From Proteobacteria bacterium CG1_02_64_396 (GTDB lineage: Bacteria; Pseudomonadota; MNWR01; CG1-02-64-396), in assembly GCA_001872725.1 (NCBI GenBank), contig MNWR01000065.1, forward strand, positions 1-64,000: a stretch of DNA of 64,000 bases, given 5' to 3'. The notes below the pieces were generated by a model. The model did not search any database. It saw only the letters and a list, made by a program, of their open reading frames with translations, and was not told where the DNA came from. The position numbers and the translations under genes are program-made. Positions 4,171 to 52,788 of this stretch are shown here, in pieces. Positions within the stretch are counted from its first letter, which is position 1. Each line of letters begins with the position of its first letter.

Positions 4171-4232
4171 CGGGCGGGGGTATCCCCCGCGCATCCCCCT
4201 CGGTTCAAGATTCGGCAGGAGCTAAGCCCCCC

Positions 4233-5822
4233 ATGAACGAATTTCCCCGCTGGAAAATGGTGACCATTGTCTTCGTGACCCTGGTCGCCATGTTGTTTGC
4301 CTTCCCCAATCTGCTCTCCCCCGAAACCCGTGACAAGCTCCCCTCCTGGCTGCCCAGCCAAGGGGTGAACCTGGGTCTGGATCTGCGCGGCGGCATCCAT
4401 CTGGTGTTGCAGGTGCAGGTCGAAAAGGCGCTGCGCCGGACGGTGGAGGGTGATACCGACGAGGTTCGTAACGCCGTTCGTGAAGAGAAGCTGCGCTACG
4501 GTGGGGTTGACGTGGTCGACGACCACACCATGGCGGTGCTGGTCGGCGAGGGGGAATCGGAGCGGTTGCAGACGGCGATGGCCAAGGCGCTGCCCAATTA
4601 CACCATCGCACCGGGGGAACATGCCGGTAAGGCGGCGCTGCTGCTGACCTTGACCCCCCTATCGATGGAGGAGATCAAGAAAAATGCGGTCGATCAGGCC
4701 ATCGAGACGATCCGCAACCGCATCGACCAGTTCGGTGTCTCCGAGCCGGTGATTCAGCGTGAGGGTCAGGATCGGGTGCTGGTTCAACTGCCGGGGGTAA
4801 AAGATACCCGCCGCGCCAAGGCGCTGATCGGTCGTACCGCCCTGCTCGAATTCAAGATGGTCGACGAACAGGGGGATCTTTCCGCCGCCCTGGCGGGGCG
4901 GGTTCCCCCCGGCGACGCGTTGCAATACAGCAAACCGGCTGCCGGACAGAGCGCGACCCCCTACCTGCTGAAAAAACGGGTGGCCTTGACCGGCGATCTA
5001 CTCACCGACGCCCGGGTCGCCATCGACCCCCAAGACAATCAGCCGCTGGTGCACATCACCTTCAACCGCAAGGGGGGGCGTAAATTCGCCGACCTGACCG
5101 CCGAGAGTGTCGGCAAGCGGATGGCGATTGTGCTCGATGGGGTGGTCTATTCTGCCCCCGTCATCCGCGAAAAGATCGAGGGGGGACGGGCGCAGATTTC
5201 GGGGTCGTTCACCCCCGAAGAGGCCCACGACTTGGCCATCGTCCTGCGGGCCGGAGCCCTACCCGCTCCGGTGGTGGTTGCCGAGGAACGGACGGTCGGT
5301 CCCTCGCTGGGTCAGGACTCCATCGACGCCGGGATGACCTCGATCATCGTCGGTGGTGTGATCGTCTTGATCTTCATGGCGCTGTACTACCGGGTTTTTG
5401 GGGTCATCGCCGACATCGCCCTGGTCTTCAATATCGTCATTCTGGTGGCGGTGCTGTCGATGTTGCAGGCAACCCTGACCCTGCCCGGTATGGCGGGGAT
5501 CGTGCTGACCATCGGTATGGCGGTCGACGCCAACGTGCTGATTTTTGAACGCATCCGCGAGGAATTGCTGCTGGGGCGAACCCCGATTGCAGCCATCCAC
5601 AGCGGTTACGACAAGGCGTTCGTGACGATCATGGATTCAAACATCACCACCTTGATTGCCGCCCTGGTGCTCTTCGGTTTCGGTACCGGCCCGGTCAAGG
5701 GGTTTGCCGTGACGCTGTCCATCGGCATCCTGGCCTCGATGTTCACCGCCATTCTGGTCACCCGCTGGCTGGTCCACCTGACCTACGGCCGCCGCCGCCG
5801 CGTCCAGAGCCTGGCGATCTAA
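4233..5822 (+). CDS. secD: Protein translocase subunit SecD
   Basis: Proton-driven translocon accessory subunit that helps pull secreted proteins across the inner membrane. It is 529 residues, at the short end for proteobacterial SecD. An N-terminal membrane segment is followed by the GLDLRGGIHLVLQV motif (about residues 48-61), the periplasmic P1 domain and five C-terminal membrane segments with AVDANVLIFERIREE. An AGGAG site precedes the ATG. It follows yajC by 62 bases and precedes secF by 13. Confidence 0.97.
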   Translation: MNEFPRWKMVTIVFVTLVAMLFAFPNLLSPETRDKLPSWLPSQGVNLGLDLRGGIHLVLQVQVEKALRRTVEGDTDEVRNAVREEKLRYGGVDVVDDHTMAVLVGEGESERLQTAMAKALPNYTIAPGEHAGKAALLLTLTPLSMEEIKKNAVDQAIETIRNRIDQFGVSEPVIQREGQDRVLVQLPGVKDTRRAKALIGRTALLEFKMVDEQGDLSAALAGRVPPGDALQYSKPAAGQSATPYLLKKRVALTGDLLTDARVAIDPQDNQPLVHITFNRKGGRKFADLTAESVGKRMAIVLDGVVYSAPVIREKIEGGRAQISGSFTPEEAHDLAIVLRAGALPAPVVVAEERTVGPSLGQDSIDAGMTSIIVGGVIVLIFMALYYRVFGVIADIALVFNIVILVAVLSMLQATLTLPGMAGIVLTIGMAVDANVLIFERIREELLLGRTPIAAIHSGYDKAFVTIMDSNITTLIAALVLFGFGTGPVKGFAVTLSIGILASMFTAILVTRWLVHLTYGRRRRVQSLAI

Positions 5823-36056: not shown

Positions 36057-36926
36057 ATGGACCCGAAACATCCCATAGGTTGGCAGTGGGCATGGCCCCG
36101 GCTGGCAAAGGTGGCGGCGTTGGTATTCGGTTTGGCGGGTTTCGGTCTGGCCGATGTTGCCCCCCCCACCCTGCTGGTTGTTTGTCCCGACCGCCCCCCG
36201 TACACCGAACTGGCGGCCGCAATTCGTCCCGACGGTTGGGATGTTCGAGTTGTCGACCATATTGCGGCAGAGGGTTTGCCCAAGGTCGACGCCGCCGTGG
36301 CCTTGGGGCACGAGGCCTGGGAGGAACTCGGCCGGGCCGGATATACCGGGGCACTGTGGGTTGCCATGGTGTCACAGCGACCGGTAGAGGGACAAGGCAA
36401 GGCCATGGGGGGGCTGCTTCTGGCACCCGACATGGAGCCGATGCTGCGCCACATCCTTCACCTGTTCCCCGGTGTGCATCGCATCGGGGTTTTATTCGAC
36501 CGCACCAAGGCCCCCGACCTCTTCCCCGTTGCACGGGGGGTGACCCTGATCCCCCTGCCCATTGATCCCGAACATCCGGTTTGGCCCTCGGCCCAGCTCG
36601 ATCAAGAGGGGATCGAACTGCTGTGGCCGCTGCCCCATTCGGCGCTCTATCGGGCCGGGGTCGACGATCTGCTGTGGGTCGATATCCTGCGGCATCGCCT
36701 GCCCGCCGTCGCCCCTTCGCCCCAATTAATGGGGCGGGGTCCGGTGGTGGCATGGCAATACGATTGGCCCCTGGCGGGGGTTTGGTTGTCCCAAGCGGTC
36801 GCTCTGGGCAGGCCCCAATGGGGACGTCATCCCGTCGGCTCGTGGGTGGTCGACCCCCATGTGGCCAGGTTGATCGGTATCGATCCGGTTCGATTGCGGC
36901 GGCGTATTGAGGAATGGGAGCCATGA
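36057..36926 (+). CDS. Periplasmic substrate-binding-like protein
   Basis: A 289-residue protein; ATG 36057 with AGGTGATG upstream. A signal/anchor (residues 15-33) precedes a type I periplasmic-binding fold resembling ABC_sub_bind (PF04392): LLVVCPDRPPYTELAAAI, GALWVAMVSQRPVEGQ, LRHILHLFPGVHRIGVLFDRTKA. No permease or ATPase is adjacent. The stop overlaps the kinase start (ATGA), so it probably delivers ligand information to that kinase. The divergent spacing to the receptor gene is only 54 bases. Confidence 0.75.
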   Translation: MDPKHPIGWQWAWPRLAKVAALVFGLAGFGLADVAPPTLLVVCPDRPPYTELAAAIRPDGWDVRVVDHIAAEGLPKVDAAVALGHEAWEELGRAGYTGALWVAMVSQRPVEGQGKAMGGLLLAPDMEPMLRHILHLFPGVHRIGVLFDRTKAPDLFPVARGVTLIPLPIDPEHPVWPSAQLDQEGIELLWPLPHSALYRAGVDDLLWVDILRHRLPAVAPSPQLMGRGPVVAWQYDWPLAGVWLSQAVALGRPQWGRHPVGSWVVDPHVARLIGIDPVRLRRRIEEWEP

Positions 36927-38446
36927 TGGGCATATTGCAACTACAGCGGTGGCGGGAGCGGGCCTTGCGGTGGACGCTACGACTTTCCCCCATTGCGGCG
37001 GCGTTGGTGCTCCACGTGGGGCTACTGGTTGCGTACGAACACGAGCGGCAGGATCAAGTGGTCAGCCAGTCCCTGCACGACGTGGAGATCCTGGCCGAGT
37101 TGGTGGCCCGTCAGGCGGGGCGTTCGGTCGCCTTCGGAAACCTGCAAGAGCTCAAGGATGTGGCCTCGGCGATCAAGGCCCATGTCGGGGTGACCGGGGT
37201 CCGGGTCATCCGCGCCGACGGCCAGGTGTTGGTCGGCGACGAGGTGGAACACTCCGGGGTCAAGGTGTTGCGGCGGGAGATCCGGGATTGGTCGGCCAGC
37301 GAAGGGGCCTTTTTCTTCGGTCCCCAGGAGGGGGTGCCGACGGTGCTCGGAGAGGTCGAGGTGGTCATCGATCCCCAACCGCTGCTGCCCCATGGGGCGT
37401 TGCCCGGCGGTTATGTCTGGTTGGTGGCATTCATTTGGGGTGTGGCAGGGTTGATGGTTCTGGCATTGGAATATTGGTGGTGGCGCCCCATCGGACGGTT
37501 GCTGTCAGCCAATTGGCTTGAAGAGCGGAGCGCCGCCGCCCGCCTGCCCCCCATTTGGAACGATATCCTCAGAAAACTGCTGCAACGGCTGCGGATTCGC
37601 CGCAAACAGAACGAATCGTTTCGGGAGCGCCAACAGAAGCTTGAGCATACGAACCGAGATTTAGAAAGGGCGCTGCGACGTTCACAAGAAACCGGACGCG
37701 AAAGCGCGCTGCGCTTAAAAGAAGAAAATCGCTTTCAAGAGCGTTTTTTGGCCCAGCTTTCCCATGATTTTCGTACCCCGTTAACCGGCATTCGCTCCGC
37801 CATCGATCTGTTGGCCGATCGCCACGAGCCCTTGAGCGAGGCAACTCAAGATCGATTGATGGCCCACATCAAGGAGCAAAGCGGTCGCTTGGAGCGTTTG
37901 GTCGAGCGGGTGATGCACCTGGAGCGCTTTGCCTTGCAGGAGGAGCCGGTTTTGCTCGCCCCCCTTGATGTGCACGGGCAATTGCAAGGGCTGGTTTCCG
38001 ATTTGGATCGTGAGGTGGCCGGGGCGGGGTTGCAGATTTTGCTTGACCCCCAGGTGGGGAAGAAACATTTGCTGGCAGAAGGGAGCGCCAAGCTGATCCG
38101 GGCGGTATTCCTCGAATTGGTCCGTAACGCCATCCGCTTTACCCCGCCGGGGGGGGTAATCCAAATCGGGATCGACATCGAACCTGAGAGCCGCTGGATT
38201 TTGGTCAAGGTGCAGGACAGCGGCGTCGGCATCGAGCTGGATCGGATCGACAAGGTTATGCAAACCGGAGTCACGCCGACGCCGGGGGTGCGACCGGGGG
38301 ATCAGGGGCGTGGAGGGGGGCTGACCCGCGCACGCCGCTCGATGCAAAAAATGGGGGGGGAGCTCAAGTTGGTATCGCAACCGGGGAGGGGAACGCGGGT
38401 CGAGGTTTGGCTGCCAGGGACCGCCCAGTCCTCATCCGAGCAGTAA
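36923..38446 (+). CDS. Membrane sensor histidine kinase
   Basis: A 507-residue kinase; ATG 36923 preferred (GGAG upstream, four-base overlap). Membrane helix 1 at about 23-38, periplasmic domain about 40-163, helix 2 at about 164-183, coiled coil about 225-275. HisKA follows with phospho-acceptor His281 (QLSHDFRTPLTG), then HATPase with N-box Asn402 (LVRNAIRFTPPGG), G1 Asp432 (DSGVGI) and a glycine-rich G2 at 462-466. The C-terminal ends of this gene and the response-regulator gene overlap convergently by 15 bases. Confidence 0.93.
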   Translation: MMGILQLQRWRERALRWTLRLSPIAAALVLHVGLLVAYEHERQDQVVSQSLHDVEILAELVARQAGRSVAFGNLQELKDVASAIKAHVGVTGVRVIRADGQVLVGDEVEHSGVKVLRREIRDWSASEGAFFFGPQEGVPTVLGEVEVVIDPQPLLPHGALPGGYVWLVAFIWGVAGLMVLALEYWWWRPIGRLLSANWLEERSAAARLPPIWNDILRKLLQRLRIRRKQNESFRERQQKLEHTNRDLERALRRSQETGRESALRLKEENRFQERFLAQLSHDFRTPLTGIRSAIDLLADRHEPLSEATQDRLMAHIKEQSGRLERLVERVMHLERFALQEEPVLLAPLDVHGQLQGLVSDLDREVAGAGLQILLDPQVGKKHLLAEGSAKLIRAVFLELVRNAIRFTPPGGVIQIGIDIEPESRWILVKVQDSGVGIELDRIDKVMQTGVTPTPGVRPGDQGRGGGLTRARRSMQKMGGELKLVSQPGRGTRVEVWLPGTAQSSSEQ

Positions 38447-38806
38447 TTCGCCGACCTTTCGAGACAGGGTTTCGGGATCGAACGGTTTGGTCAGAAACAG
38501 ATTAGCCCCCAACGCTAGCGCCTTGGCGGCGTCCCGATCCTGCCCTTTGGCGGTCAAGACGACGATGGGGATTTTCGCAAGCCCGGGGTCGGCGGCATTA
38601 CGAACCCGCCGAATCATCTCGAAGCCATCAAAGGGCTCCATCATCAGATCGGTGATGAGCAGCCGAGCCCCCTCACTGATTAATACATGCCATCCGTCGT
38701 CGGGGTTGTCGATGGCGCTGACCTGGTAGCCGTTTTTCAGCGACAACAAAATCTCAAGGGGAATCAGGACCCCTTGATCGTCTTCCACGATGACGATATC
38801 CCACAT
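38432..38806 (-). CDS. Single-domain response regulator (CheY-like)
   Basis: A 124-residue receiver without an output domain. The acidic pair is Asp9/Asp10, the phospho-acceptor Asp53 (LLITDLMMEPFDG), Thr85 and Lys107 (LTKPF), so all active residues are intact. It is encoded opposite the kinase and downstream of the sigma54 activator. It may relay phosphate or act by protein contact on the activator, which has no receiver domain of its own. Confidence 0.94.
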   Translation of the reverse strand: MWDIVIVEDDQGVLIPLEILLSLKNGYQVSAIDNPDDGWHVLISEGARLLITDLMMEPFDGFEMIRRVRNAADPGLAKIPIVVLTAKGQDRDAAKALALGANLFLTKPFDPETLSRKVGELLLG

Positions 38807-38847: not shown

Positions 38848-40569
<1,722 letters not shown>

Positions 40570-40582
40570 CGGGAACCTCTAG

Positions 40583-40629
40583 GGTTAATATCAACCAGTT
40601 AATATTAACCATATCAGCCATTATTAACC
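40583..40629. promoter_or_regulatory. Three copies of a TTAATATTAACC-type palindrome upstream of the sigma54 activator
   Basis: GGTTAATATCAACC (40583-40596) and AGTTAATATTAACC (40597-40610) abut, and a half-matching ATTATTAACC lies at 40620-40629. GGTTAATATTAACC would be a perfect 14-bp dyad, so these look like binding sites for a dimeric regulator. They sit 14-60 bases upstream of the activator start and about 80-125 bases upstream of the candidate sRNA promoter. Confidence 0.6.
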
Positions 40630-40706
40630 GAACCAAGCGGTTTGAGATCCATGATGCTCTGAATAAAAGCTCGATGCGACAACGGTTTTGGCAGCATCGC
40701 ACGGGT

Positions 40707-40722
40707 TGGCACGGTTCGTGAT
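40707..40722 (+). promoter_or_regulatory. Weak -24/-12-like element before the candidate sRNA
   Basis: TGGCACGGTTCGTGAT has a perfect -24 half (TGGCACG) but GTGA in place of TTGC at -12, losing the usually essential C. If used, transcription would begin near 40733. It may instead be chance or a partly altered site. Confidence 0.3.
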
Positions 40723-40734
40723 CTAGACGTTAGC

Positions 40735-40957
40735 GAGACTTGAGGACGGGGCCAGGGAACAAGGAGGAGCAGGGGGTGGGGAACCACCGGAGCCAGGAGG
40801 CTATGGAGGCACGAGGATCGTAGCCGCATGCAGGAGTCGGAAATGGCCCAGACGGATCAAGGAAAAGGACTCTCAGTCTTCAGGTGGAAGGGTTGGACCA
40901 CGGAGGGTAGGAGGTCAGGAACACCACGAAAAGCCCCGGGCAACCCCCGGGGTTTTT
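40735..40957 (+). ncRNA. Candidate CsrB/RsmZ-type CsrA-sequestering RNA
   Basis: The stretch has no plausible gene but about 18 GGA motifs in some 190 bases on the plus strand, followed by a terminator. Several GGA motifs lie in hairpin loops, the CsrA-binding arrangement: GGTGG-GGAA-CCACC (40775-40788), GCC-AGGA-GGC (40792-40801), ACGA-GGA-TCGT (40811-40821) and GGT-CAGGAAC-ACC (40913-40925). CsrB, RsmY and RsmZ titrate CsrA/RsmA this way. The 5' end is estimated from the -24-like element. csrA is not in the window. Family assignment rests on motif pattern, since these RNAs share little primary sequence. Confidence 0.7.
40931..40957 (+). terminator. Rho-independent terminator of the candidate sRNA
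   Basis: CCCCGGG (40934-40940), loop CAACC, CCCGGGG (40946-40952), then TTTTT; A-T pairs extend the stem at its base. It lies just downstream of the stop of the minus-strand epimerase-like gene (40961) and may serve that side weakly. Confidence 0.85.
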
Positions 40958-40960
40958 CGC

Positions 40961-41758
40961 TTATGGGGGTATCGCGTTCCACCAGGGGGAGCGAATCAGC
41001 CGTTTGGATCCGCTCTGCAATGCCAAGGCGATGGGTGAGCAATGTTGCTCGGCCTGGTCGGCGTCGATCAACCGAGGGGGGGAGAGCCCCAGTCGGCGGG
41101 CGGCTTGGGCAACGGCGTAACGTCTGAGGTAGGGGGCGCCATCGCTGAAATGAACCACGCTGCCTGCCGGGGCCAGATCCAACAGCCGTACCCCCAACCG
41201 CGCCGCGTCGCGAACCTCGATACGATTGAACCAGCGGGCGGGCCGCCAATCGATTAGGACCTCGATTTTTCCCGCCAGCAGTCGCTCTTCAAGATTTCGC
41301 CCCGGTCCCACAATCCCCGACATCCTCCAGATTTGCCCCCCCCACGCCAAGGCCAGCGCCTCGGCGGCAAGGCGTCGTCGTGCCATGGGGTGTTGCGGTT
41401 GGGTGGGGGTCGATTCGTCGATCCAACGCCCGCCGTGATCCCCCAGAACCCCGGTGCTGCTGACGTAGCTGATGCGAGTCACGTCATGACGCGCGGCGAT
41501 TTGCAAAATCCTCAAGAGTCTGGGGTCGGGCTCCAAATCGACTGGGGGGGCAATGGTGTAGACCAGGGCGTCGATGTCGCGCCATGCCGGATGGTCGATT
41601 CCGATTTCCTCGGCCATCATCGACCACCAGCCGGACCACATTTCAGGTTGATCGGGTTTTTGATGTCGTGCGATGCCAAAAACCCGGTGCCCCTGCTCGA
41701 CCAGTTCTCGGGCCAGGAATCCCCCAAAGTAACCCGCGCCGACGATGAGTACATTCAT
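40961..41758 (-). CDS. NAD(P)-dependent epimerase/dehydratase-like protein (YeeZ type)
   Basis: A 265-residue extended-SDR Rossmann protein. ATG 41758 gives the usual start MNVLIVGAGYFGGFLARELVEQGH with the dinucleotide loop GAGYFGG. YVSSTGVLGDHGGRWIDEST provides the TG-V-YG-like element and the WRMSGIVGPGRN stretch follows, as in YeeZ/YbjT-like proteins of unknown substrate. The active-site Tyr is not obvious. Confidence 0.85.
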   Translation of the reverse strand: MNVLIVGAGYFGGFLARELVEQGHRVFGIARHQKPDQPEMWSGWWSMMAEEIGIDHPAWRDIDALVYTIAPPVDLEPDPRLLRILQIAARHDVTRISYVSSTGVLGDHGGRWIDESTPTQPQHPMARRRLAAEALALAWGGQIWRMSGIVGPGRNLEERLLAGKIEVLIDWRPARWFNRIEVRDAARLGVRLLDLAPAGSVVHFSDGAPYLRRYAVAQAARRLGLSPPRLIDADQAEQHCSPIALALQSGSKRLIRSPWWNAIPP

Positions 41759-42755
41759 GATGTGTTCCATTCAAAATAGCCGTTCGCGCCACCCAGTCGT
41801 CAAGGTGATGCTGGCTGGGTTGTGCTGTTTGTGGGCGCTGGGGGCCAGCGCTGCGGAGCGGCTCTGGCTGGTGGCCGATGAGGGTCATGATACCTTGGGT
41901 GGATTGCAATGGGATGGCTCTCCCCGAGACGACAGTCGCCGGGCGGGGGGGCGGTCGGACGACCATGGCATCGAAAAAAGCTTCCAATTGCAGTATGGCC
42001 GCATGACCTATTCGGAGCGGTTGCCTGTTGGTATTTGGCACCCCTCCCGGGCGTTGACCAGTCGTGCTGATCTCGACTGGGGGGGGAGCCGGATCGATCT
42101 GTCCGGTTTTTGGGGGCCGACCCGGTTCCGCTGGACCTTCGGTGCGCAATATCAAAAGTCGCAGCAGGGGCTTGAACAGTGGTGGGACGGCGATTTGCTG
42201 TATCAAAAGAACCAGCTTGAGTTCCAGGCGGTACAACTGGAGGGGGGATTCGGCTGGCCTTGGGACTACCAACGTCTTTCGGGGCAATTCATGGCCGAGG
42301 TTGTGGGACGACAGGAGGATCAAAGTCGGAGTTTTGCAGCCGGGCAATCCGCTTTTTCGGTAGAGCGGATTCGATCGGCATGGGTCGGTTTCAAGGGGGA
42401 TGTGCGTCTGCCCCTGACCGAGGGTATTGCCCTAACCGCCGGGGGCAACTGGGATTACTCCCCTTGGAACCAGATGACCAACACCATTTTTCTCTCCTCG
42501 CCCGACGCAACGTTCCAGGGCGCCGAAGGGACCCGTTGGCAGGCTTGGGCGGGGTTTCTGGCTACGGGGCGGTTTGCGTTGGGACCGTTCCATTTGGCAC
42601 TGGTGGTGGGCATGAGCCAAACCCGTTTGAACGGCGAGACCTCGGGGCGAACGGTGGCCGATTCGACGGGAAACCTGGTGACCGCCTATTGGCCCGAAAA
42701 CCAACACCGCGAATACGGCGTCGGCATGACCCTGACCTGGAGTCCCGGGCGATGA
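41757..42755 (+). CDS. Predicted outer-membrane beta-barrel protein
   Basis: About 332 residues with a signal peptide (MLAGLCCLWALGASA before AERLW). Repeated alternating hydrophobic/aromatic strands follow (RFRWTFGAQYQKS, WAGFLATGRFALGPFHLALVVGMS, REYGVGMTLTWSPGR), a barrel-like pattern. I do not recognise a named family. The start is uncertain: ATGs at 41745, 41757, 41760 and 41808 are in frame and none has a good ribosome site. The next gene begins at its stop (ATGA), so the two are coupled. Confidence 0.65.
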   Translation: MMCSIQNSRSRHPVVKVMLAGLCCLWALGASAAERLWLVADEGHDTLGGLQWDGSPRDDSRRAGGRSDDHGIEKSFQLQYGRMTYSERLPVGIWHPSRALTSRADLDWGGSRIDLSGFWGPTRFRWTFGAQYQKSQQGLEQWWDGDLLYQKNQLEFQAVQLEGGFGWPWDYQRLSGQFMAEVVGRQEDQSRSFAAGQSAFSVERIRSAWVGFKGDVRLPLTEGIALTAGGNWDYSPWNQMTNTIFLSSPDATFQGAEGTRWQAWAGFLATGRFALGPFHLALVVGMSQTRLNGETSGRTVADSTGNLVTAYWPENQHREYGVGMTLTWSPGR

Positions 42756-47386: not shown

Positions 47387-50300
47387 ATGCCCCAGACCCC
47401 GTTTGCCCATCTTCATCTGCATTCCGAATACAGCCTGCTGTCGGCGACCCCACGCATTCCTGCGCTGGTGAAGGCGGCAGTGGAGCGAACGATTCCGGCG
47501 CTGGCGATGACCGACCGGCTCGGTTTGTTCGGCATGGTCAACTTCTACAAAGAGGCGGTAAAAAAGGGGGTCAAGCCGATTTTGGGTGGGGAGCTACTGC
47601 TGGTGGGACCCGGTATTCCCGATCCCGCCCCCATCGTCATTTTGGCGGCGGGGATGAAGGGGTACCGCCATCTGCTTGATCTGATCTCTCGCTGTTACAT
47701 CGAACCTGCCTCCTCGACTCCGACCATGCATGTGGAATGGTTGCGAGGCATGGAGGAGGTCATCGTGTTGACCGGGGGGGCGCGTGGTCCGGTCGACCGC
47801 TGGCTGGAGTTGGGCGAGCAAGAGAGGGCAACCGAGGTGCTGCGTCGTCTGGCGGCGGTGGTAACCCCCGGCAATCTGTACGTCGAGCTGGTGCGCGATG
47901 GCCGCCGTTTCGAGGGACAACGGGTTCAGGGTTTGGTGGCCCTGGCCCAGGAGCTCGAATTGCCCCTGGTGGCCACCAACAACGTCTATTTCATCAGCCC
48001 CGAGGACTACGAGAGCCAGCAAATCCTCGAATGCATCCGCGATAAACAGGCGCTTGATTATGAGCAACGGCGCAGCGAGGTCACCGCCGAGCAGTGGCTC
48101 AAACCGATGGCGGATATGGTCGCATTGTTCGACGACCTGCCCGAGGCTATTGCCAACGCCGGCCGGATCGCCCGACGCTGCACCGTCACCATCGAAATGG
48201 GCAAGTACCACCTGCCTGACTTCCCAACTCAGGGGGGGGTCTCCATCGATGAGGAGCTGCGTCGCCAAGCCTTTGAGGGGCTGGATGAGCGCTGGCCTCT
48301 GGTCTTGCAACTGCGCAGGCCGGTCGATCCGATCATCCTTCGTGCTGAATACGAAGCCCGGCTCGAATTCGAGCTAGGGACCATCATTCAGATGGGATTC
48401 CCAGGCTACTTCCTGATCGTGGCCGACTTTATCAAGGAGGCCAAACGGCGCGATATTCCGGTCGGTCCAGGCCGTGGCTCCGGCGCCGGATCGCTGGTTG
48501 CCTATTGCATCAGCATCACCGACATCGATCCTCTTCCCTACGGTTTGCTGTTCGAACGCTTTCTCAATCCCGAGCGCATCTCGATGCCCGACTTCGACAT
48601 CGACTTTTGCGTCGACGGGCGCGACGCGGTGATCGAGTACGTGGCCGAGAAGTACGGTCACGCCAACGTTGGACAAATCGCCGCCATCGGCACCATGTTG
48701 GCCCGTGGGGTGGTTAAGGATGTGGGGCGGGTGCTGGGGATGGGATTTGGCGAGCTCGACCGAATCAGCAAGATGATCCCCTTCGAAATCGGCATGACCC
48801 TTGAAAAAGCGCTCGAAAGCGAAGAGGAGTTACGTCACCAACGTCAAGCCGACGAACGGGTTGACCGGCTGATTACCCTGGCTCTGCGGGTCGAAGGGTT
48901 GTCGCGCAACATCTCCAAACACGCCGCCGGGGTGGTCATCGCCAGCCATCCCCTCCACCACTTCGCCCCTTTGATGAAACTCGAAGGGGAGGAGGGGACC
49001 CTCATCCAGCTCGATATGAAACAAGCCGAGGCGGTGGGGTTGGTGAAGTTTGACTTTCTCGGGCTGCGCAACCTGACGGTGATCCATCAGGCGGTGAAGC
49101 TAGAAAATCGGTTGCGTTGCGAACAAAACCTGGCCCCCCTCGACATGGCGACCCTGCCGCTGGATGACCCCGAGACCTACCGGCTTTTGCAAGAGGGGCG
49201 GACCACCGGGGTGTTTCAGCTTGAGTCGGGGGGGATGAAAAACCTTCTCACCAAACTCAAACCCGACTGCTTCGAAGACATCATTGCCCTGGTCGCCCTC
49301 TACCGCCCCGGCCCGCTCAATTCGGGCATGGTCGATCAGTTCGTCAACCGCAAGCACGGCTTGGAATCGGTTGTCTATCCGGTTGCTAGCCTAGAATCGA
49401 TCCTGAAAGAGACCTACGGGGTGATGGTCTACCAGGAGCAGGTGATGCAGGTAGCCCAGATCGTCGCCGGTTACTCACTGGGGGAGGCCGATCTGCTGCG
49501 TCGGGCGATGGGAAAAAAAATCAAAGAGGAGATGGCCCAGCAGCGCGATCTGTTCACCTCACGGGCGGTGGAACGGGGGCTCGATGAGGGGACGGCGGGG
49601 GGCCTGTTCGACCTGATGGAGAAATTCGCCGAATACGGCTTCAACAAGTCCCATTCGGCCGCTTACGCCCTGGTCGCTTACCAAACCGCCTACCTCAAGG
49701 CCCACCATCCGGTCGCCTTCATGGTGGCCCAGATGAATGCCGACATCGATAAAACCGACAAGATCGCCAAGCACATCGAGGAATGCCGGGCGATGCGCAT
49801 CAATGTGCTTCCCCCCGAAGTGAACCTGTCTCAGGCCCGCTTTACCCGAGAAGGGGAATCGGTCCGTTTTGGGCTCGGAGGGATCAAAGGGCTTGGGGTC
49901 GAGATGATGGAGGCGGTAGTGCGCCATCGTCCCGAGCAGGGTTTCAATACCATTTTCGGATTGTGCAAGGCGACTTCAACCGAGGGAATGAACCGCAAGG
50001 TCTTGGAATCGTTGATTCTCTCGGGGGCACTGGACAATCTGCACCCAACCCGGGCCGGAATGATGGCCGGGATCGATGCGGCGCTTGAGGAGGGTAACCG
50101 GCACGGGCGCGACAGCCGCTTGGGGCAAGGGGGACTCTTCGGCGGCACGGTCGAGGCGGTGCAAACCAAGGTGCCGGTGATGGTTGAGTACCCCTACGAC
50201 GAGCTATTGCTGCGCGAGGGGGCCGCCATCGGCGCCTTTCTTTCGGGGCATCCGCTGGATCCCTACACCAAGGAATTGCCCCAGTGGGGGGGAAAACCCA

Positions 50301-50848
50301 TCGAGGAGTTGCCCGCCTTGGGCGATTCCAATGAAAGTGTAGCGATCATCGGCATTCCGGTGGGACGCCAAGAAAAACGAACCCGCGAAGGGGAGCGGAT
50401 GGGGTTGCTCCAGCTGATCGATCAGACCGGTTCAATCGAGGTGACGATTTACCCCAAGGTTTATCAGAACTTCAAAGGGCCGTTGGAGAAGTGGGGACTC
50501 AAACCGATGCGGATAATCGGTCGTTACCGCGATGGCCGGGGGTCGTTCAACGCCGACCACGTCGAGGCGATTGCCGACATTCGCTCCGGAGTCTTCCGGG
50601 CGCTGGTTCTTTCTTGGGATGGGGAGGGTGCAATTGCCTGGCGCCGGGTGGAACAAACCTTGGAGGAAAGTCCAGGTATTTTGCCTGTAGTGCTTGAGGT
50701 GGAGCTCGATGGGGTGGGGCGGGGGCGGTGGCGTTTACCCCGTTTTCTGGTTCGGCCCGACGACGAGTTGGTGTACGCTCTTGCCCAGCATGGGCTGAAG
50801 ATTGCGTGGGATTCGGAGGGAGCCCCGACATGGGGTCGGCTGCACTAA
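47387..50848 (+). CDS. dnaE: DNA polymerase III alpha subunit
   Basis: Replicative polymerase, 1153 residues, the normal length. N-terminal PHP domain (FAHLHLHSEYSLL), Pol III palm with the catalytic aspartates in MPDFDIDFC, GPGRGSGAGSLVAYC, tandem HhH and clamp-binding regions, and a C-terminal OB fold (VAIIGIPVGRQEKRTREGERMGLLQLIDQTGSIEV). The dnaE-accA neighbourhood is typical of gamma-proteobacteria. Confidence 0.98.
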   Translation: MPQTPFAHLHLHSEYSLLSATPRIPALVKAAVERTIPALAMTDRLGLFGMVNFYKEAVKKGVKPILGGELLLVGPGIPDPAPIVILAAGMKGYRHLLDLISRCYIEPASSTPTMHVEWLRGMEEVIVLTGGARGPVDRWLELGEQERATEVLRRLAAVVTPGNLYVELVRDGRRFEGQRVQGLVALAQELELPLVATNNVYFISPEDYESQQILECIRDKQALDYEQRRSEVTAEQWLKPMADMVALFDDLPEAIANAGRIARRCTVTIEMGKYHLPDFPTQGGVSIDEELRRQAFEGLDERWPLVLQLRRPVDPIILRAEYEARLEFELGTIIQMGFPGYFLIVADFIKEAKRRDIPVGPGRGSGAGSLVAYCISITDIDPLPYGLLFERFLNPERISMPDFDIDFCVDGRDAVIEYVAEKYGHANVGQIAAIGTMLARGVVKDVGRVLGMGFGELDRISKMIPFEIGMTLEKALESEEELRHQRQADERVDRLITLALRVEGLSRNISKHAAGVVIASHPLHHFAPLMKLEGEEGTLIQLDMKQAEAVGLVKFDFLGLRNLTVIHQAVKLENRLRCEQNLAPLDMATLPLDDPETYRLLQEGRTTGVFQLESGGMKNLLTKLKPDCFEDIIALVALYRPGPLNSGMVDQFVNRKHGLESVVYPVASLESILKETYGVMVYQEQVMQVAQIVAGYSLGEADLLRRAMGKKIKEEMAQQRDLFTSRAVERGLDEGTAGGLFDLMEKFAEYGFNKSHSAAYALVAYQTAYLKAHHPVAFMVAQMNADIDKTDKIAKHIEECRAMRINVLPPEVNLSQARFTREGESVRFGLGGIKGLGVEMMEAVVRHRPEQGFNTIFGLCKATSTEGMNRKVLESLILSGALDNLHPTRAGMMAGIDAALEEGNRHGRDSRLGQGGLFGGTVEAVQTKVPVMVEYPYDELLLREGAAIGAFLSGHPLDPYTKELPQWGGKPIEELPALGDSNESVAIIGIPVGRQEKRTREGERMGLLQLIDQTGSIEVTIYPKVYQNFKGPLEKWGLKPMRIIGRYRDGRGSFNADHVEAIADIRSGVFRALVLSWDGEGAIAWRRVEQTLEESPGILPVVLEVELDGVGRGRWRLPRFLVRPDDELVYALAQHGLKIAWDSEGAPTWGRLH

Positions 50849-50923
50849 ACCGGTCTGAAATTAAACCGGGTTTTTTGGGAAAGAAGGCCATGTTGGCCTC
50901 GAACCGATACAGGTAGGACTTTG

Positions 50924-51880
50924 ATGCGTAACGTCCTTGAATTCGAAAAACCGATTGCCGAATTGGAGTCCAAGATCGAGGAACTCCGCCGGGTGGGGGA
51001 TGCCTCCAAGGTCAATTTGAGTGAGGAGATCCTCAAGCTCACCCGCAAGAAGGAGGAGCTGACCGAGGAGATCTTCCGCAACCTGACACCGTGGCAGATC
51101 AGCCAGTTGGCGCGCCATGCCGACCGCCCCTACACCCTGGACTACATTGAGCGGATCTTCGACGGCTTCACCGAATTACACGGCGACCGGGCCTTTTCCG
51201 ACGATGCCGCCATCGTGGGGGGGCTTGCCCGTCTCGACGGCAAGGCGGTGATGGTGATCGGCCACCAAAAGGGGCGGGACACCAAAGAGAAAATCAAACG
51301 CAATTTCGGCATGCCGATGCCCGAAGGGTACCGCAAAGCGCAACGGTTGATGCGACTGGCCGATAAATTCGGCATCCCCATCGTTACCTTCGTCGATACC
51401 CCCGGCGCCTATCCCGGTATCAGCGCCGAGGAACGTGGGCAGAGCGAGGCGATTGCCGCCTCCCTCAAGCTCATGGCGGGGTTGACCACCCCCATGATTA
51501 CAGTGGTGATCGGTGAGGGGGGCAGCGGCGGCGCGCTGGCCATCGCGATGGGCGACCGGGTGCTGATGTTGCAAAACGCCACCTACAGCGTGATTTCCCC
51601 CGAGGGGTGCGCCTCGATCTTGTACAAGGATGGCAGCCGAGCCCCTGAAGCGGCTCAAGCGCTCAAGATGACCGCCGAGGATTTGCTCAAACTCAAAGTC
51701 ATCGACGGTGTGATCCCCGAGCCCGCAGGGGGGGCCCACCGCGACCCCGACACCATGGCCTCAACCCTGAAGGGGACGCTGCTACGCGAACTCAAGGGGC
51801 TTGCCCGTTTTGCGGGTCAGGAGCTTTCCGAACGCCGGATGGCCCGCTTCGAGGCGATGGGGGTGTTCGAGGAGCGCTGA
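50924..51880 (+). CDS. accA: Acetyl-CoA carboxylase carboxyltransferase subunit alpha
   Basis: Carboxyltransferase half that makes malonyl-CoA for fatty-acid synthesis. 318 residues from ATG 50924 (AGGTAGGA upstream); begins [16 protein letters not shown] and contains [41 protein letters not shown] and [12 protein letters not shown], all conserved. Follows dnaE by 75 bases. Confidence 0.97.
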
Positions 51881-52393: not shown

Positions 52394-52487
52394 GGAGAGG
52401 TACCGAAGTGGCCATAACGGCACCGACTCGAAATCGGTCGGGGGGCCGAAAGCTCCCACGCGGGTTCGAATCCCGCCCTCTCCGCCA
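52394..52487 (+). tRNA. tRNA-Ser (anticodon CGA)
   Basis: 94 bases with acceptor GGAGAGG (52394-52400) pairing with CCTCTCC (52477-52483), discriminator G, encoded CCA, anticodon loop ACTCGAAAT with CGA and a long class II variable arm. Confidence 0.96.
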
Positions 52488-52539
52488 CCTTCGAACCACA
52501 ACATGCAGTTTCCCGGGCAGAAGCGCCGGGATTGGGTCG

Positions 52540-52630
52540 GGAGAGATGACCGAGCGGCCGAAGGTGCAGCACTGGAAATGCTGTGTACTCTAACCGGGTA
52601 CCGAGGGTTCGAATCCCTCTCTCTCCGCCA
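52540..52630 (+). tRNA. tRNA-Ser (anticodon GGA)
   Basis: 91 bases, acceptor GGAGAGA (52540-52546) pairing with TCTCTCC (52620-52626), encoded CCA (52628-52630), anticodon loop CTGGAAAT with GGA, long variable arm. Second tRNA-Ser in tandem. Confidence 0.96.
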
Positions 52631-52670
52631 TCTCATGTTTCTCGGGCGCCGAACGCGGAGCGCCCCATAT

Positions 52671-52788
52671 GGACGGCAAGGACTGGTCCCCACGCGGCAA
52701 GGCCCGTAAACCCCGCCAGGTCCGGAAGGAAGCAACGGTAGCGGATCTCCTTGGGCGCCGTGGTTCAGGCTGGTCTGAGCCGTCCACC
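52671..52788 (+). ncRNA. ffs: Signal recognition particle RNA (4.5S type)
   Basis: The invariant domain IV sequence CAGGTCCGGAAGGAAGCA lies at about 52719-52736. The ends pair (GGACGG at 52671 with CCGTCC ending about 52785), giving a ~118-base hairpin of the small bacterial SRP RNA. It binds Ffh for co-translational membrane targeting. It sits after two tRNA-Ser genes and before a terminator. Confidence 0.95.

Follow-up and report, generated by a model that had tools for sequence, protein, structure and literature searches.

To our knowledge, RNAs that sequester CsrA have been described almost only in the Gammaproteobacteria, mostly under the control of GacA/UvrY, and outside this class the restraint of CsrA is ascribed to FliW or to means as yet unknown. 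In the NorR-norVW system, a GAF-AAA+-Fis activator is encoded divergently from its target, and three operator sites lie between the two. A described case of a protein-sequestering sRNA beside the gene for its sigma54 activator is that of CrcZ and CrcY in Pseudomonas, which are sigma-N dependent and are activated directly by CbrB through upstream sites (PMC8871633). Computational candidates for Csr sRNAs were reported earlier for Geobacter (PMC11934962, citing the method of PMC5568370). The open-access literature searched yielded no sigma54-driven CsrA sponge. A possible precedent, control of rsmZ by RpoN in P. stutzeri, was considered and set aside: GacA sites belong to both rsm genes of that species, and the only genes for which an RpoN box has been reported there are pslA and nifLA.

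At the locus described here, a candidate CsrA-sequestering RNA lies divergent from a gene for a sigma54-dependent activator, and a small array of operator repeats is found between them (Table 1).

Table 1. Features of the candidate locus; positions are those of the 64-kb window
Feature	Position	Strand	Remarks
Histidine kinase	36914-38446	+	convergent with response regulator
Single-domain response regulator	38432-38806	-	downstream of activator
Sigma54-dependent activator	38848-40569	-	GAF, AAA+ (GAFTGA) and Fis-type HTH; divergent from candidate RNA
Three 15-nt operator repeats around palindrome GGTTAATATYAACC	40582-40596, 40596-40610, 40615-40629		about 100-150 nt upstream of the inferred RNA start
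Sigma54-like promoter TTGGCACGGTTCGTGAT	40706-40722	+	-24 element perfect; -12 has GA instead of GC
Candidate CsrA-sequestering sRNA	40733-40957	+	about 225 nt, 19 GGA; GGA count and shuffles, structure ensemble, no gene there
Hairpin GGTGG-GGAA-CCACC, GGA in apical loop	40775-40788	+	99% of sampled structures
Hairpin GCC-AGGA-GGC, GGA in apical loop	40792-40801	+	85-93% of sampled structures
Hairpin ACGA-GGA-TCGT, GGA in apical loop	40811-40821	+	about 76% of sampled structures, with the GGA apical in 99%
Intrinsic terminator, stem with T run	40927-40959	+	strong, bidirectional; also serves convergent gene ending at 40961
Epimerase-like gene	40961-41770	-	convergent with candidate RNA

The host genome and its CsrA partners

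The window, by which the whole stretch of DNA analysed is meant, comprises 64 kb of contig MNWR01000065.1 from Proteobacteria bacterium CG1_02_64_396, whose genome of 2.94 Mb has a completeness of 98.5% and was the only one returned by a search of the host's own class. A DnaE tree built with named genomes places the host as sister to the Gamma- and Betaproteobacteria (95/95), with the Alphaproteobacteria outside; this is the placement of one gene on a long branch and, if it is right, the candidate sponge lies outside the Gammaproteobacteria. The assembly gave no 16S rRNA match, despite its stated completeness. Two tRNA genes followed by a small SRP RNA occupy positions 52394-52778 (plus strand) of the window, near the genes for DnaE (47387-50848) and AccA (50921-51880). 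A 38-nt string, AGGAGGTAGAGCAATGCAGGAGCAATTGCCGAGTAGGA, recurs in near-identical copies about 20 times in the genome, often less than 100 nt from contig ends; since copies are frequent at such places, the string belongs to a dispersed repeat, at which the assembly probably broke.

An earlier note on this DNA, which proposed a CsrA sponge here, had suggested that the genome be searched for csrA, and one canonical copy was found: it encodes 75 amino acids, scores 114 bits against the CsrA equivalog model (cut-off 73) and exceeds both equivalog cut-offs. fliW was absent from the genome by a search that detected its positive controls. In Bacillus and Campylobacter, CsrA is antagonised by the protein FliW, which is likewise absent from the Gammaproteobacteria, in which sRNAs control CsrA (PMC11934962). 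The genome also carries rpoN.

An exceptional cluster of GGA motifs in an intergenic region

The count of about 18 GGA motifs, on one strand of an otherwise empty intergenic stretch, that had first drawn attention to the locus was confirmed and slightly raised. The gap at 40570-40960 (391 nt), between the start of the divergent activator gene and the end of the convergent epimerase-like gene, holds no annotatable gene and its plus strand is unoccupied. On that strand, 19 GGA motifs fall within 40735-40957, including 10 AGGA and 7 ANGGA. This is the top count among all 223-nt segments of the 64 kb, both strands included (mean 3.4, sd 2.0); no separate location has more than 12. Dinucleotide shuffles of the same stretch contained 12.1 +/- 2.1 GGA (p=0.001), so that base and neighbour composition would rarely yield the observed number. 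Thirteen stem-plus-T-run sites were found in the window; the one closing the candidate is preceded by 19 GGA and 7 ANGGA, the others by at most 8 and 3, respectively.

Two other readings of the cluster were rejected. The motifs are spread evenly over the three codon phases (5, 7, 7), two frames are interrupted by stops and the third, open throughout, has no start codon, which argues against a coding origin; nor was a tandem array found that would make the stretch a repeat. DNA searches with the intergenic region against 60 relatives from the phylum returned short matches at chance level only. For a second sponge, clusters of AGGA triplets were sought in the genome, with 167 matches; among the matches listed and fetched, no cluster has more than 14 GGA per 223 nt, and several of those at the upper end of this range were in coding phase or belonged to a dispersed repeat.

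Predicted structure and relation to known sponges

The display of the motifs was compared with shuffles in which the GGAs were kept in place and the remaining letters were shuffled (n=150). Of the 19 motifs, 10.3 are predicted to be fully unpaired in the candidate, against 6.1 +/- 1.3 in the shuffles, none of which reached the observed value; for GGAs in hairpin loops the figures are 5.25 and 3.4 +/- 1.1 (p=0.033). Four GGA-loop hairpins had been proposed by eye. Three of these dominate the sampled structures (Table 1) and are unaffected by placing the 5' end at 40720, 40733 or 40745, while the fourth, GGT-CAGGAAC-ACC, is disfavoured in the whole RNA: only 1% of samples place its GGA at 40918 in a hairpin loop. 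An alternative 3' hairpin at about 40887-40910, GGTGGAAGGGTTGGACCACG or ACCACGGAGGGTAGGAGG according to the chosen start, exposes one GGA instead. The folding energy of the whole candidate is ordinary (z=-1.2).

The same script was applied to csrB and csrC from the E. coli MG1655 record. In csrB, 22 GGA were counted in 369 nt (14.7 in shuffles), with 10.3 apical; in csrC, 14 in 246 nt (8.9 in shuffles), with 3.8 apical (p=0.053). The candidate thus resembles both in being intergenic, in carrying many GGA motifs with several in hairpin loops, in having an intrinsic terminator and in its behaviour against shuffles. Its apical display falls between that of csrB, which shows more, and csrC, which shows fewer, whereas its density of 8.4 GGA per 100 nt is higher than that of csrB (6.0) or csrC (5.7), and its loops lack the regularity seen in the CAGGAUG hairpins of CsrB. 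Unlike CsrB and CsrC, it has a sigma54 activator as its neighbour and a host without a clear UvrY.

Comparison with the Rfam families RsmY (RF00195), CsrB (RF00018) and CsrC (RF00084) left the candidate below the gathering threshold. The best match was RsmY, at 21 bits against a cut-off of 57; it spans 40828-40956, is co-linear with the complete model (1-121 of 121) and takes in the terminator and GGA segments. The CsrB model gave 9 bits (cut-off 71), and the positive controls, E. coli csrB and csrC, scored 380 and 279 bits. The likeness to RsmY and RsmZ of Pseudomonas therefore extends to this sub-threshold match over the full model length, although the candidate is about twice as long, has more GGAs and lies in a window without a GacA box. 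As its match is sub-threshold, the candidate belongs to no described sequence family: its predicted design is that of a CsrB-type RNA, and by sequence it stands outside every Rfam family.

Taken with the motif count, the display of the motifs, the terminator, the presence of csrA and the absence of fliW, these comparisons lend good support to the proposal of a CsrB/RsmZ-like sponge, and the plus-strand stretch is, with considerable confidence, read as a non-coding RNA that titrates CsrA in the manner of CsrB and RsmZ, its binding to CsrA being predicted. At least three of its GGA sites would be offered in hairpin loops and most others single-stranded, so that one RNA could bind several CsrA dimers; capture of CsrA by the RNA would then release the mRNA targets of CsrA.

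The neighbouring activator, nearby operator repeats and a sigma54-like promoter

The activator gene adjoining the candidate encodes a protein with the GAFTGA motif. Against the NifA, NtrC and NorR models it matched in the AAA+ and DNA-binding half only, far below the cut-offs, and for its N-terminal part a search of 399 genomes of the phylum found no orthologue, with one partial match of 32% identity. The response regulator and activator genes are probably co-transcribed. The 3' ends of the response regulator and histidine kinase genes, on opposite strands, overlap by 15 nt (38432-38446). As the activator has a GAF domain and no receiver, nothing points to a direct phosphorelay from the kinase, and the link between the RNA and the local kinase that had been envisaged finds no direct support. 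GGA-rich stretches beside activators were also noticed in other organisms, at loci designated L054, L106 and L069. At the first of these (4189-5801 of JAPDKE010000031, another bacterial MAG), up to 18 GGA per 223 nt occur on one strand around a related activator; this locus is GGA-rich throughout, and the high count there is thus probably a matter of composition.

The three operator repeats lie between the activator and the RNA, about 100-150 nt upstream of the RNA start as placed here, which is the usual position of enhancer sites. No copy of GTTAATATYAACC with up to one mismatch was found elsewhere in the 2.94-Mb genome, and an operator array private to this intergenic region, between activator and RNA, strengthens the link of the RNA to this regulator; the earlier note had not mentioned the array. 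A sigma54-like site precedes the candidate by about 12 nt, and it is from this site that the start of the RNA was placed near 40733. Its score, computed with weights set by the analyst from the published consensus, is reached at 17 of 127968 positions in the window, equivalent to a chance of about 1.6% in the 120 nt examined. The sigma54-type promoter suggested previously is plausible yet weak, with a perfect -24 element and an imperfect -12 element.

By the mechanism that these features suggest, the GAF-type activator most likely occupies the three operator repeats and switches on the RNA from the sigma54 promoter, and it probably also acts on its own gene. Control of the sponge by sigma54 through the neighbouring activator is given a chance approaching even; it is likely yet unproven, given the imperfect -12 element and the occurrence of -24-like sites at chance frequency (for TTGGCACG-N5-TG, the genome contains 7 exact matches, close to the chance expectation). 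The fuller proposal, that outside the Gammaproteobacteria a sponge is run by a dedicated GAF-type sigma54 activator via private operators and not by GacA/UvrY, is put forward tentatively. In the 64-kb window, no match to the GacA box TGTAAG-N6-CTTACA was found, and no clear GacA/UvrY orthologue was detected, the protein most similar to E. coli UvrY having 28% identity; this is the range of general NarL-type regulators, and a diverged GacA box or regulator is possible.

A serious competitor, also rated somewhat below an even chance, keeps the CsrA sponge but gives it an ordinary or unrecognised promoter, leaving the activator to regulate itself or something else via the operators. These directly adjoin the start of the activator gene and may serve autoregulation alone, and activation by GacA/UvrY is typical of the known Csr sRNAs (PMC4682653); the flaw in the -12 element and the chance frequency of sigma54-like sites genome-wide point the same way. 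On the other side, a search for a sigma70-like promoter upstream of the RNA was negative, the operators lie at the usual enhancer distance from the inferred start, and a -24-like element stands exactly at the required place.

The locus resembles two described systems in part. It shares with CrcZ/CrcY-CbrB the proximity of a protein-sequestering sRNA to a sigma54 activator gene, but CrcZ titrates Hfq/Crc and not primarily CsrA, it lies downstream of cbrB whereas the candidate is divergent from the activator gene, and CbrB has a receiver domain where the present activator has GAF. With NorR-norVW it has in common the divergent GAF-AAA+-Fis activator and the three intervening operators; the target here would be an RNA gene, the half-sites are spaced as GT-N7-AC for NorR and as GTTAATATTAAC at this locus, and the activator is below the NorR cut-off with matches outside the sensor domain only.

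Other readings of the GGA-rich stretch

That the stretch encodes a different structured RNA, such as a base-pairing sRNA or an anti-Shine-Dalgarno decoy, in which GGA reflects a purine-rich single-stranded design, is considered improbable. The sequences of CsrA sites overlap with those of Shine-Dalgarno elements, and AGGAGG-like strings do occur in the candidate at 40763, 40796 and 40910; against this stand a GGA excess beyond dinucleotide content, the preference of the motifs for unpaired positions and loops, the canonical csrA, and profiles like those of csrB and csrC. Least probable of all is a chance GGA-rich spacer from which no functional transcript arises, for although the terminator, which was borne out as the feature closing the RNA, is bidirectional and common to the convergent gene, could belong to that gene alone and is by itself no proof of a plus-strand transcript, and although the folding energy is unremarkable, the GGA count is far outside the window distribution, the unpairing is non-random, and the stretch is neither coding nor a repeat.

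Implications for CsrA control

A CsrA sponge in a separate sister class that lacks FliW would mean that restraint of CsrA by RNA extends beyond the described cases. The regulatory wiring may be new as well, a suggestion that draws on an operator array found only here and on an imperfect match to a promoter. Since sequence families miss RNAs of this kind, tests for GGA display combined with a terminator could reveal others. If the proposed control is correct, regulators of another type can also govern CsrA sponges, and the locus would represent a module with a single target, through which a small-molecule signal acts directly on global control by CsrA.
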